NCBI GenBank assembly: GCA_031296935.1 | Contig: JAVDPD010000025.1 | Location: 22,818 to 86,817 of the forward strand | Length of the DNA stretch: 64,000 nucleotides | Reading direction: 5' to 3' | From: Cerasicoccus maritimus | Lineage (GTDB): Bacteria > Verrucomicrobiota > Verrucomicrobiia > Opitutales > Cerasicoccaceae | Part shown: positions 38,884 to 56,796 of the stretch, piece by piece | Numbering within the stretch: position 1 is the stretch's first letter | How the letters are laid out: the number at the start of each line of letters is the position of its first letter | Notes under the pieces: generated by a model | What the model was told of the DNA's origin: nothing | The model's database searches: none | Seen by the model: the letters and a program-made list of their open reading frames with translations, nothing else | Program-made: the position numbers and the translations under genes

Positions 38884-39858
38884 ATGGCATTAATTACTTA
38901 CCGCCAAGCCATCAAAGATGCGCTCGCCGAAGAAATCGCCCGCGACCCGAATGTGTTCGTGATGGGTGAAGAAGTCGCGCAATACAATGGCGCTTACAAG
39001 GTCACGGAAGGCCTCTGGGAAAAATTCGGGGACAAGCGCATGGTCGACGCCCCCATTAGCGAAGCCGGCTTCATCGGCCTCGGCATCGGTGCTTCCATGC
39101 TCGGCATGCGCCCCGTCATGGAGTTCATGTTCTGGTCCTTCTGCTACGTGGCATTTGACCAGCTGCTGAACAACGGCTCCTTCTGCCGCTACATGTCCGG
39201 TGGCTTGATGAATGTGCCGATCGTTGTCCGCGGTCCCGCCAACGGCGGCACCAATGTCGGCGCAACGCACTCCCACACACCGGAAAACCTTTGCGCCAAC
39301 CATCCTGGCATCAAGGTCGTCTGCCCGTCCAACGCTGCTGATGCCAAGGGCCTGATGAAGACTGCGATTCGTGACAACGACCCGGTCTTCGTCATGGAAA
39401 ACACCCTGCTCTACGGTCAGAAGTGGGAAGTCCCCGAAGAGGAATACCTGATCCCAATGGGCAAGGCCAACATCCTCAAGGAAGGCACCGACATTTCGCT
39501 GATCGCTCACGGCCGTGGTGCCATGACCGCTCTTGAAGCCGCCAAGCGCCTCGAAGAAGAGTACGACATCAACGCCGAAGTCCTCGACCTCCGTTCGATC
39601 CGCCCGCTTGACGTGGATGCGATCCTCGAAACGGTCAAGAAGACCAACCGCGTTGTCTACGTCGAAGAGAACAAGCCGTTCTCCAGCGTTGGCTCGCAGA
39701 TCATCAGCATCATCCAGGAAGAAGCGTTCGACCACCTCGACGCCCCGATCAAGCGCGTCAACTCCATCGATGCGCCGCAGATCTACTCGATGCCGCTTGA
39801 AAAGATTCAGATCCCGGACGCCGACCGCGTCATCAAGAAGGTTCTGGAAATCTGCTAG
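38884..39858 (+). CDS. pdhB: Pyruvate dehydrogenase E1 component, beta subunit
   Basis: A 324-residue beta subunit that completes the E1 active site with PdhA. The start MALITYRQAIKDALAEEIAR, the TPP-contacting segment FVMGEEVAQYNGAYKVTEGL, the GPANGGTNVGATHSH loop and the C-terminal transketolase domain with VLDLRSIRPLD are all typical. An ideal terminator follows 24 bp after the stop, so the E1 subunits form a two-gene transcript and the E2/E3 genes must lie elsewhere. Confidence 0.96.
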   Translation: MALITYRQAIKDALAEEIARDPNVFVMGEEVAQYNGAYKVTEGLWEKFGDKRMVDAPISEAGFIGLGIGASMLGMRPVMEFMFWSFCYVAFDQLLNNGSFCRYMSGGLMNVPIVVRGPANGGTNVGATHSHTPENLCANHPGIKVVCPSNAADAKGLMKTAIRDNDPVFVMENTLLYGQKWEVPEEEYLIPMGKANILKEGTDISLIAHGRGAMTALEAAKRLEEEYDINAEVLDLRSIRPLDVDAILETVKKTNRVVYVEENKPFSSVGSQIISIIQEEAFDHLDAPIKRVNSIDAPQIYSMPLEKIQIPDADRVIKKVLEIC

Positions 39859-40082: not shown

Positions 40083-40266
40083 TAGTCCTAAGTAGCTTAT
40101 TCGAAAACAACAGTGCGGTTGTCTGAGTAACAACCGAGGCTGTGTTGCCCCAACAACCGAGGCTGTGTTAAGCAAACAACCGAGCGGTTGTTTTGCAGTT
40201 TCCTACGTAGGCTTTTCAAAAACAACCGCATAGGCTTTTCAGAAACAACCGAGTAGGCTTTTATAT
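40083..40266. repeat. Tandem array of eight degenerate 23-bp units
   Basis: Units start at 40083, 40106, 40129, 40152, 40175, 40198, 40221 and 40244, exactly 23 bp apart. Six of the eight begin AACAAC, and five of those AACAACCG. The rest of each unit is one of three types: CGGTTGT (40106 and 40175 units), GGCTGTGTT (40129 and 40152 units) or TAGGCTTTT (40198, 40221 and 40244 units, with a weaker version in the 40083 unit). In the 40175 unit AACAACCG and CGGTTGTT form a perfect dyad. The period is not a multiple of three and no frame is open across it. It lies between convergent genes (pdhB and the SGNH hydrolase). Confidence 0.85.
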
Positions 40267-40299
40267 CTTGGCTCAATGGCCCCCCAAATGGATGCGTGT

Positions 40300-54473: not shown

Positions 54474-54567
54474 CAAGGCGTTACGCGCCGAGGTTTAAGG
54501 TTTTGCCGAAGAATGTAGATTGGAGGTTGAATCTTCGCAAGCCGGTCTTCAATGTTTCTTCTCTCAA

Positions 54568-56103
54568 ATGGCGCAAGAGGCATATCAAGTCATCGCGCGG
54601 CGCTGGCGCCCCAAGCAGTTCGACGAAATGGTCGGGCAGGAGCACATCGTCCGCACCCTGAAGAACGCGATTGAAACCAACCGCATCGCGCACGCCTACC
54701 TGTTTGTCGGCCCCCGCGGCACCGGTAAGACCACCACCGCCCGCATCTTCGCCAAGGCCCTCAACGCCGAAGGCGGCCCCCAGGTCGCGCCCGACGACTC
54801 CACGCCGATCAGCCAGGCCATCATGAGCGGCTCCTGCATGGACGTTATCGAGATCGACGGTGCTAGCAACAACGGCGTCGACCAGATCCGCGACCTGCGC
54901 GAGGAGTGCCAATACGCCCCTACCCAAGGCCAGTTCAAGATCTACATCATTGACGAGGTCCACATGCTCTCCAATCAGGCGTGGAACGCGCTCCTGAAGA
55001 CCCTCGAAGAGCCGCCCTCGCACGTGAAGTTCATTTTCGCGACCACGGAAGCCAACAAGGTGCTCCCGACAGTTGTCTCCCGCTGCCAGCGCTTTGAATT
55101 CCGCCCAATCCCGGACGTGCAAATCATCGAACGCCTGACGCACATTGCCCAGGCCGACGACATCAAGGTCGACGAAGGCGCCCTGAAAGCCATCGCCCGC
55201 ATGGCCGACGGCGGCATGCGCGACGCCCAGTCCATCCTCGACCAGCTCATTTCCTTCTGCGGCAACGACATCACCGAAGTAAAGGCGCTCGACGTTTACG
55301 GCCTCGCCGCCCCAGCCTCGATCGACGAGATTGTTAAGGCCATCGCGATTGCCGACTACCAAAAGCTTTTTGACGCCATTGAGGCCATCGCCGCCGAAGG
55401 CCGCGACCTCTACCGCGTGCTGCTCGACATCCAGTCCCGCACCCGCGAGGCCATGATCGAGGCCATCCGCAACGGCGGCTCCACCGACAGCCTCGGCGCC
55501 CCGCTCACCGCGGAGTCGCTCACCCGCATGCTCGACGCCCTGCAGTCCGGCGAAAGCCAGGTGCGCAGCGGCCTCAGCCAACGCGTGAACTTCGAGGTGG
55601 CGCTCCTGCGAGCGGTCGACCAAAGCCGCACCCGGGCGATCGACTCGGTCATCAAGGAACTTAGCAATCTCGCAGCCGGCCTCCCACAAGACGCCGGCCA
55701 AAAAAAAATAGAGACACCGGCAACGCCCCCCAGTAACGGGCCGATCCCGCCGCTGGGCGCCATGCCCAAGTCTGCTGCGCCACCCAAAGGCCCCGTTGCT
55801 CGCGCCACCGGGATAGACACCGAGCACCCCGCTGGCGGCGATCACGCCGACGGCCCCACCGAAGACGAGTGGAACCGCAGCTCCGACTCTGCCGAAGATG
55901 AGCCCGAGGGCATGTTTGAAGAAATCCCCGTTGCCCGCTCCAAACGCGCGCTAGACCAGGACGCCGTCAAATACGGCCCCGAGACCAAGGAATTTCAAGC
56001 GGCAATGGAGGCCATCGCCGGTGACACCGAGCACCTCCTCGTCGACCTCCTCCGCGCCGACTTCAAATTCGTCGAAAGCGTGGACCCCGAAGCGCTGCGC
56101 TAG
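54568..56103 (+). CDS. dnaX: DNA polymerase III tau subunit (gamma by frameshift), lacking the zinc module
   Basis: The clamp-loader ATPase. Walker [10 protein letters not shown] (about 49-57), DEVHMLS (about 129-135) and sensor [10 protein letters not shown] are intact in the first 220 residues; the collar domain runs to about 365. The four-Cys zinc module that normally follows the Walker A helix is absent: a segment [13 protein letters not shown] replaces it. At codon 378 an A9 run (55700-55708) offers frameshifting. A -1 shift ends after ten codons at TAA, and a +1 shift or loss of one A ends at once at TAG, giving a gamma-like product of about 380-390 residues; the zero frame gives tau (511). 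ATG 54568 begins the family N-terminus ([13 protein letters not shown]). The usual ybaB-recR neighbours are missing. Confidence 0.96.
55700..55708 (+). promoter_or_regulatory. A9 slippage/frameshift site in dnaX
   Basis: Nine consecutive A after C, read as CAA AAA AAA ATA in the tau frame, contain the heptamer A-AAA-AAA. Downstream, CCCAG and CTGGG can form a stem about 15-40 nt further on. The site lies between the AAA+/collar domains and the tau-specific tail, as in E. coli (translational) and Thermus (transcriptional slippage, also A9). Confidence 0.7.
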
Positions 56104-56175: not shown

Positions 56176-56329
56176 CCGCGCCTGTGCGACGCCATCACAC
56201 AGCCTGTGCGATTACTTAACACCGACGCTGCTAAACCTTAGCACAGCCTGTGTCATTACTTAGCACTACCTGTGCTAAACCTTAGCAGCGGCGCTGTCAT
56301 GCCTTAGCACAGTCGCTGAGTCATCCCAA
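56176..56329. repeat. Tandem array of seven degenerate 22-bp units
   Basis: Units start at 56176, 56198, 56220, 56242, 56264, 56286 and 56308, exactly 22 bp apart. Most begin CAC or CAG, continue with CCTGTG or CGCTG, and end CTTAG. The 3' half alternates between TCATTACTTAG-like and GCTAAACCTTAG-like forms. Two units share CACAGCCTGTG exactly, itself nearly a dyad. The period is not a multiple of three and no open frame spans it. It lies 72 bp after dnaX. Organisation (constant half plus switching half, seven or eight units) mirrors the 23-bp array at 40083 though the sequence differs. Confidence 0.85.
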
Positions 56330-56431
56330 GAACTGCCCAGCTCGTTGTGAAATCATCACCATCGCCAGCTCACAGCCTGTTCCTAAGGCAGGAACTGCGC
56401 CTTCACTGGTGGACAACGCTGCGTCATTGCC

Positions 56432-56510
56432 GCCAGCGTTCCGCTGGCCGATAGATTTGCACACCGTGCAAATGCCGACTCCCTCGCAACGGCTACGACG
56501 GAGCGTAGCC
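56432..56510. repeat. Two-hairpin intergenic element, copy 1, with a third hairpin
   Basis: Stem 1 GCCAGCG-TTC-CGCTGGC (56432-56448), linker CGATAGA, stem 2 TTTGCAC-ACC-GTGCAAA (56456-56472), tail TGCCGACTCCCTC. A further hairpin GGCTACG / CGTAGCC (56491-56510) follows in this copy only. A near-identical copy lies 2 kb away at 58420 and a divergent one at 48477. Confidence 0.75.
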
Positions 56511-56796
56511 CTCCAGCCAAATAAACCGCCCGTCCACGACTCTTTCCATGAACGCATTGAAACCATCCACATACTGATGCGAGTTTCTTTTGGTCTGATA
56601 AGCTTGTCATCTTTGTCCCCAACGATTGTAAATTACTATACCGACCTTTAGCTTAGCGTTACTAGATAAATCATGACACAGCCCGCACCAACGTTTCCAC
56701 GACTCCCTGCATCCCCCAGTGCGCCCAAGCTCCCACTGGCCAAGCTTGTTCAATGAACGTTCGCGGCACTTAAAAATACTGTTCTCCGGAAATAAA
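56511..56796. other. Intergenic stretch upstream of the AT-rich orphan gene
   Basis: Composition becomes AT-rich from about 56580. No ORF with coding character and no further repeat is seen. The open frame running back from the orphan gene has no good start here. Confidence 0.5.

Follow-up and report, generated by a model that had tools for sequence, protein, structure and literature searches.

The array of 22-bp units at positions 56176-56329 on the forward strand of the window, i.e., of the whole 64,000-nucleotide stretch of Cerasicoccus maritimus DNA analysed here (G000:C25:22818-86817; genome G000 comprises 4.81 Mb in 66 contigs), is probably a dispersed solo copy of a unit consisting of an HU-DUF4469 gene and an array following its 3' end, and such arrays are predicted to be multi-site binding tracks. 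Multi-site protein binding had been put forward as a possible function in the original prediction, made from the window sequence, and is now the best reading because an HU-like gene partners the array; this partnership is the ground on which binding is proposed.

The window array, designated F22a, is real as predicted and comprises about seven units starting at positions 56176, 56198, 56220, 56242, 56264, 56286, and 56308. In the segment 56080-56420 the top lag is 22, with a score of 39.6, the maximum in 200 dinucleotide shuffles being 14.4 (taken over lags 12-40). Each unit can be written as an 8-bp half-word, a 1-bp centre, the inverted half-word, and a 5-bp spacer, TAGCACAG-C-CTGTGCTA-AACCT. 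The best-conserved core, at 56198-56318 on the forward strand, contains six CACAG-like dyad centres, between which CTAA..TTAG or CATTACTTAG segments are placed. CAC had been ascribed to every unit, which is not so for the weak unit at 56176, devoid of it, nor for the unit at 56286, which starts with CAG. The alternation of two kinds of 3' halves, also claimed before, is present with variants in units 2-6, and the last unit decays past CACAGTCGCTG. TRF reported periods of 22 (56197-56275 and 56229-56287) and 44 (56198-56287, 82% matches), the latter corresponding to this alternation. Upstream of the array lies a dnaX-like gene coding for a clamp-loader subunit of DNA polymerase III (54520-56103, forward strand). 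A hairpin-like GACGGAGCGTMGCCCTCCA repeat adjoins the array at 56420-56525 and recurs in the genus, e.g., with a 48-bp period at L111:3246-3528.

A second solo array of the window, F23a, occupies positions 40083-40269 on the forward strand, downstream of a gene at 38884-39858 of the same strand. It consists of seven units in exact 23-bp steps (8+2+8+5), with words such as AACAACCG, AAAGCCTA, AACACAGC, and GTTTCCTA, and has a lag-23 score of 45.8 vs. a shuffle maximum of 11.6. The compositions 8+1+8+5 and 8+2+8+5 place both window arrays in one architecture with different words, the common plan being an 8-bp half-word, a centre of 1-2 bp, the inverted half-word, and a 5-bp spacer. Twenty-four F23 arrays comprise 235 consecutive units with steps of 23 bp in 197 and of 24 bp in 14 of 211 cases, the chaining of units having favoured 23-bp steps. 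Exact copies of six half-words, AAAGCCTA, AACAACCG, GTTTCCTA, AGTACAGC, AAGAACCG, and AACAACAG, make up 318 of the 470 half-sites; the dictionary was picked after the arrays had been read, so these counts are a description and no test. Homotypic units are under-represented in F23a, at 18% vs. 28% expected from dealt-out halves (95 units after near-copies were dropped, 89 of them classed), and a simple homodimer thus does not explain the F23a unit. This suggests that two different protomers share it, or one protomer that reads one of the halves loosely.

When the proteins encoded near 41 arrays were clustered, an HU-like family recurred next to four of them; two other families were found near three and five arrays, the latter dehydrogenase-like on reading. 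The domains of the partner protein are, by Pfam, HU-DNA_bdg (PF14848) and DUF4469 (PF14734), both present in all five partner proteins scanned, the rest having been identified via DUF4469 or tblastn alone. In the genus, matches to the HU-like protein number four in G000, six in G002, and eight in G003 (Cerasicoccus frondis NBRC 105381; Verrucomicrobiota, Opitutia), with none in G001. Sixteen of these 18 matches carry a 22- or 23-bp array at the 3' end; the two that do not, L252 and L254, are also the ones lacking a DUF4469 match. One of this pair has an AT-rich 22-bp repeat (TATCGATA) on its 5' side (L254:2262-2360). Both families of the window match arrays behind HU-DUF4469 genes of the same genome: F22a that of G000:C6:152893-153603 and F23a that of G000:C12:33159-33881.

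The 3' association was assessed at 43 DUF4469 loci, two of which run off the contig end, leaving 41, a few gene fragments (L297, L317) among them. A gene was scored as having an array when, among lags 12-40, the best one within 600 bp downstream of its stop codon was 22 or 23 with a score of at least 15, a criterion set after most of the 41 loci had been read. By this criterion an array follows 32 of the 41 genes: all 16 Cerasicoccus genes, 4 of 9 from the remaining genera of that order, and 12 of 16 from the order of G179 (Bacteroidales). It starts within 100 bp of the stop codon in 26 of the 32, and on the 5' side an array was scored at 0 of 43 loci. Among control genes, sampled from G000, G002, and G095 only, the criterion picked out 6 of 521, two of which (L197:10244 and L224:9396) are DUF4469 genes themselves, leaving 4 of 519 (Fisher p ~1e-39 for 32/41 vs. 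4/519, homologous loci not being independent). The nine genes lacking an array by this score comprise four with a top lag of 22-24 and a score of 11-13 (L277, L284, L287, L289) and five clear misses (L273, L306, L308, L310, L311). Dyad symmetry is significant (p<0.05) in 29 of 39 gene-linked arrays and not in the other ten.

Gene and array occurrence were also compared across genomes. G001 has neither the HU-like gene nor a match to F22a or F23a, and 100 kb of it contain no lag-22/23 segment; G007, devoid of a DUF4469 gene, also has zero such segments in 100 kb, and G023, likewise devoid of it, a single weak lag-23 segment (15.4) in 200 kb. In G002, with five DUF4469 genes, seven lag-22/23 segments (about six arrays) were found in 200 kb, and in G095, with four, a single array in 200 kb, which was found blind to genes and adjoins one of its own DUF4469 genes. 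Some HU-DUF4469 genes also have a 20-bp-period repeat about 200-230 bp upstream (L237:1236-1299, L238:1220-1269, L240:1213-1272, L244:1221-1284), seen in one group of subfamilies and perhaps an operator.

The association extends beyond the order. Six loci from plasmid and phage collections were fetched once the criterion had been fixed, and five of them pass, all at lag 23: Parabacteroides distasonis NZ_OY725834.1, NZ_OY725757.1, and NZ_OY725747.1, plus two contigs that are labelled as phage and unverified. On one of these contigs (L323) the array begins 490 bp from the stop codon and has no significant dyad. The sixth locus, NZ_OY725766.1, has lag 24. Treponema saccharophilum NZ_AP025290.1 and P. 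distasonis NZ_OY725761.1 (L302 and L303), which had been read by eye before, pass as well, giving a 3' array at 7 of 8 plasmid and phage loci overall. The 3' association is thus found in Verrucomicrobiota and Bacteroidota, with one named example, Treponema, in Spirochaetota. In P. distasonis the DUF4469 genes with their repeats precede large surface-type or other genes (L318-L321; a fimbrillin family gene in L319), and one of them follows a site-specific integrase (L318). A search of virus contigs with the HU-like query protein revealed no relative, and PADLOC gave no match for the three proteins submitted.

A position just past the stop codon, where 26 of the 32 arrays begin, would also suit a structure in transcribed 3'-UTR or intergenic RNA acting as a terminator, a stabiliser, or an autoregulation target of an RNA-binding HU-like protein, with the dispersed copies as by-products. 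The often low folding energies agree with such an RNA, as does the array of Parabacteroides L319, which fills most of the 171-bp gap to the next gene. However, a terminator-like hairpin with a T-run separates the gene from the array at L274, L293, L298, and L309, as judged by eye (at L276, L292, and L305, also by eye, such a hairpin stands behind the array instead), so co-transcription with the gene is not required, which favours action of the array as DNA. Since, moreover, solo arrays occur in many unrelated contexts and heterotypic half-words pair only incompletely within a unit, an RNA function is considered improbable.

The genome-wide family of arrays of one architecture that had been predicted was borne out by six F22a and 26 F23a places. 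A search of G000 with the 56176 array gave nine matches at six places, five of them besides the window, and one with the 40083 array yielded 42 matches, distributed over the array itself and 25 further places, two of the latter being single-unit pieces. Intergenic periodic segments in 590 kb of G000, a sample made up of the window and stretches picked mostly for array matches, peak at lags 22 (9 segments) and 23 (36 segments), any other lag from 14 to 33 having at most three. No count peak appears at lags 22 and 23 in 372 kb of G000 not picked in this way (lag 21: 5, lag 14: 4, lag 28: 3, lag 23: 2, lag 22: 0). One of the two lag-23 arrays there is very strong (L079, score 87.4), and a Markov control of this sample gave zero segments at lags 20-25. 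Confinement of the arrays to sites between convergent genes, which had been named as a point to check, does not hold: by the gene calls made in the present analysis, 19 arrays lie between tandem, 9 between convergent, and 3 between divergent genes, with 1 at a contig end. F23a is present in at least 3 of 177 genomes of the order, all belonging to the genus of the window, in a search that scored no more than four candidates in each genome. A pattern search of wider genome contigs gave 35 matches, 9 of them in C. frondis; those outside it, three in Neisseria dentiae included, are taken for chance. Among RNA families sought at six array loci only a tRNA reached the gathering score; a match to isrJ at L009:1276-1339 (E 0.0076) remained under it and is probably due to chance.

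Growth of each array in place by slippage and partial exchange, as first proposed, is not supported: arrays were copied as a whole to sites whose flanks are for the most part unrelated. Twelve copies of one nine-unit array were found in mostly unrelated surroundings, and eight of the copies (one partially) have a 3' extension in common; leader and tail segments common to all copies were not found. The pairs L054/L060 and L051/L054 share 217-234 bp, roughly the array alone, and the pair L051/L060 shares a further ~150 bp towards the gene. A 1.66-kb duplication (L040:9149-10807 and L041:9390-11027) comprises both an F23a array and a gene for an IS-like transposase, and the IS transposase common to these two array loci is accounted for by this single event.

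REP/BIME-RAYT systems combine a protein gene with linked palindromic repeats, further copies of which are scattered between genes. The arrays, being dispersed, intergenic, and palindromic, might be REP/BIME-like elements moved by a RAYT (Y1) transposase, and their palindromes would then function as hairpins in single-stranded form. A Y1 transposase gene of REP type, now decayed, indeed ends directly in an F23a array (L059:8969-9374, G000:C5:83379), lag-22/23 segments occur in the fetched 6-9 kb at 5 of 12 Y1 loci (L100, L101, L103, L104, L105; at a distance of some 0.7-3.7 kb from Y1), and many arrays fold at low energy as single strands (z across arrays ranging from +0.2 to -7.6). Nevertheless, apart from the decayed fragment abutting F23a, a RAYT gene flanked by the same 22/23-bp repeats was not found at the Y1 loci; G000 contains only two Y1 fragments, both decayed, and at the six Y1 loci examined for repeats the gene is flanked by other inverted arms, ~480-640 nt apart. 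Homotypic, hairpin-capable units are under-represented in F23a, subfamily A folds with z values of -2.7 and 0.2, and the association with the HU gene is tighter. The systems also differ in the partner, an HU-superfamily DNA-binding protein here and a Y1 transposase there, and in the arrangement, the units here being 22-23 bp long, placed head to tail with rigid spacing in an array 3' of the gene. Mobilisation by RAYT is accordingly regarded as very unlikely. Single-strand hairpins as such are disfavoured too: z is often low, which leaves a hairpin role conceivable, yet on one strand the 12-copy subfamily folds almost as random sequence does, and most F23a units are heterotypic. The Y1 transposase genes of C. 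frondis and G002 (L101:3416-6249, L100:3573-4862) have around them long hairpin repeats and repeats of 17-bp and 30-bp period of their own.

The dispersed copies differ from one another in a patterned way. Across eight units of the 12-copy array, half-words have a diversity of 0.034, compared with 0.138 for centres and 0.174 for spacers, i.e., they vary 4-5 times less than the remaining positions, a difference reached in 0 of 10,000 permutations. In the eight copies with the 3' extension, diversity is 0.025 in words, 0.159 at other array positions, and 0.255 in the 3' flank. The low diversity of half-words indicates that they are constrained, either in place or via copies that keep moving. Neutral minisatellites spreading through slippage and recombination, with no binding protein involved, would accommodate the fast turnover of array sites between species and a unit number differing between them by exactly one, but they are hardly credible in view of half-words so much better conserved than spacers within the same copies, a spacing fixed across families, and a 3' position recurring in three phyla.

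Members of the HU superfamily act as dimers, binding and bending DNA. The proposed binding of the HU-DUF4469 protein to the arrays could then operate as follows. The unit is composed of the gene, coding for HU-DNA_bdg and Ig-like DUF4469 domains, and a 3' array of mostly dyad-symmetric sites with a period of 22 or 23 bp. Most likely the protein itself, or two related protomers as a pair, would recognise an 8-bp half-word at each half-site and so two in every unit, and the dimers would align along the same face of the DNA at intervals of two helical turns to form a continuous nucleoprotein track. Half-words are the constrained part, whereas the spacer would merely keep phase, and the gene subfamilies mostly have separate word sets. 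Arrays, at times with a scrap of the gene tail, are copied to other intergenic sites, which would provide the protein with many tracks around the chromosome. Such stoichiometry, and any nucleoid or regulatory role of the tracks, is putative. A broader scheme is put forward only tentatively: HU-DUF4469 proteins of Verrucomicrobiota, Bacteroidota, and Spirochaetota might be diversified chromosome organisers with a gene-specific 8-bp alphabet for each paralogue, different protomers on heterotypic units, and mobile gene-array units seeding the tracks.

Were this true, the arrays would amount to a bacterial counterpart of satellite DNA, complete with a binding protein devoted to it. HU-DUF4469 proteins are annotated merely as DNA-binding or as domains of unknown function, and for many of them the 3' array offers a concrete, gene-specific candidate target, one that opens the way to a direct experiment because the predicted site lies beside the gene itself. 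Gene-linked arrays may also explain a class of orphan intergenic minisatellites. The HU fold is usually regarded as one of low specificity, and if half-words are read by different protomers, the arrays would constitute a natural system of evolving DNA specificity within it. No report of the pairing of HU-DUF4469 genes with arrays was found in the full-text literature, with most subscription journals and all bioRxiv preprints outside the scope of that search.

Direct repeats near 22 bp (~two helical turns) that serve as tracks for an oligomerising DNA-binding protein are known from plasmid iterons and partition-site arrays. The present arrays differ from these in their dyad units, chromosome-wide dispersal, and an adjoining gene that is HU-like and not Rep or Par. 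Burroughs et al. reportedly described in 2017 an expansion of the HU/IHF superfamily in Bacteroidetes, including an HU-HIG clade; HU-DUF4469 proteins belong to the same superfamily as this clade, for whose members we know of no DNA target array. The only solved relative found by sequence is an uncharacterized protein, PDB 4fmr. TDE_2259 of Treponema denticola, which combines PF14848 with PF14734 and is strongly decreased in a trtA mutant, is said to bind DNA non-specifically, and the sections of that report drawn on here mention no array (PMC12724145).

Judged by the parts of its description used here, the closest described repeat is BrickBuilt of Porphyromonas gingivalis, which consists of tandem 23-nt units without spacers between them, is intergenic, occurs in 19 dispersed copies, and changes in unit number by whole units (PMC4596501). 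It is presented as one species-specific MITE with a leader, a tail, and terminal inverted repeats; one copy, BrickBuilt_14, adjoins PGN_0872, annotated as a DNA-binding protein (PF00216), and those parts of the account name no protein partner (PMC4596501). Both are tandem, intergenic, dispersed direct repeats, of 23 nt in BrickBuilt and of 23 bp (F23) and 22 bp (F22) here. The present arrays are set apart, on the description available, by many word families, the plan of dyad half-words, and the HU-DUF4469 gene in cis, and the BrickBuilt leader and tail have no counterpart common to all copies here.

The assignment of words to genes and the travel of the units were followed between genomes. Counterparts with 75-98% protein identity mostly share word sets (L281/L282, L293/L298, L285/L295, L288/L296, and L291/L297, by eye), and different gene subfamilies have different word sets (also compared by eye); an exception is L286, whose protein is 79% identical to that of L282 and whose array words differ. 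Segments of 0.8-1.2 kb are shared between genomes, with no common surroundings in the 16 kb compared, by L255/L256, L262/L264, and L259/L260, and no transposase was seen within them. The part common to L255/L256 is the gene with its terminator, and L259/L260 also share a 0.5-kb piece that has further copies; L266/L268 and L265/L271 have a long shared context instead. Remains of the gene are found in some solo arrays, namely a coding tail of 27 nt (L053) or 20 nt (L050:3495) and 38 nt of terminator (L060). In the left flank of the 12-copy array, two copies match the gene tail exactly over 20 and 27 nt, and three more over 13 nt. G000 contains F22b and F22c arrays although its DUF4469 genes include none of the corresponding subfamilies, which indicates that solo arrays outlive the gene or travel apart from it.

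Eighteen array sites of G000 were matched in C. frondis, with flanks aligning on both sides at 2 of them. No lag-22/23 array was detected at 15 of the matched sites, two have the same family (F22a at L180 and F22b at L181), and one a different family. The F22a array common to both genomes differs in length by exactly one 22-bp unit, which counts in favour of the original prediction. At the 40083 site of C. frondis the terminator of the 38884-39858 homologue is followed directly by a convergent gene, and the array is absent. The site with a different family is that of the window array at 56176, where C. frondis has a AAGTGTCGCCGACACTT 22-bp family 3' of dnaX. In G000 this family, together with another 22-bp family (AGTTCCTCGG..), adjoins an F22a array at L061:9672-10356, the genome being without genes of the matching subfamilies.
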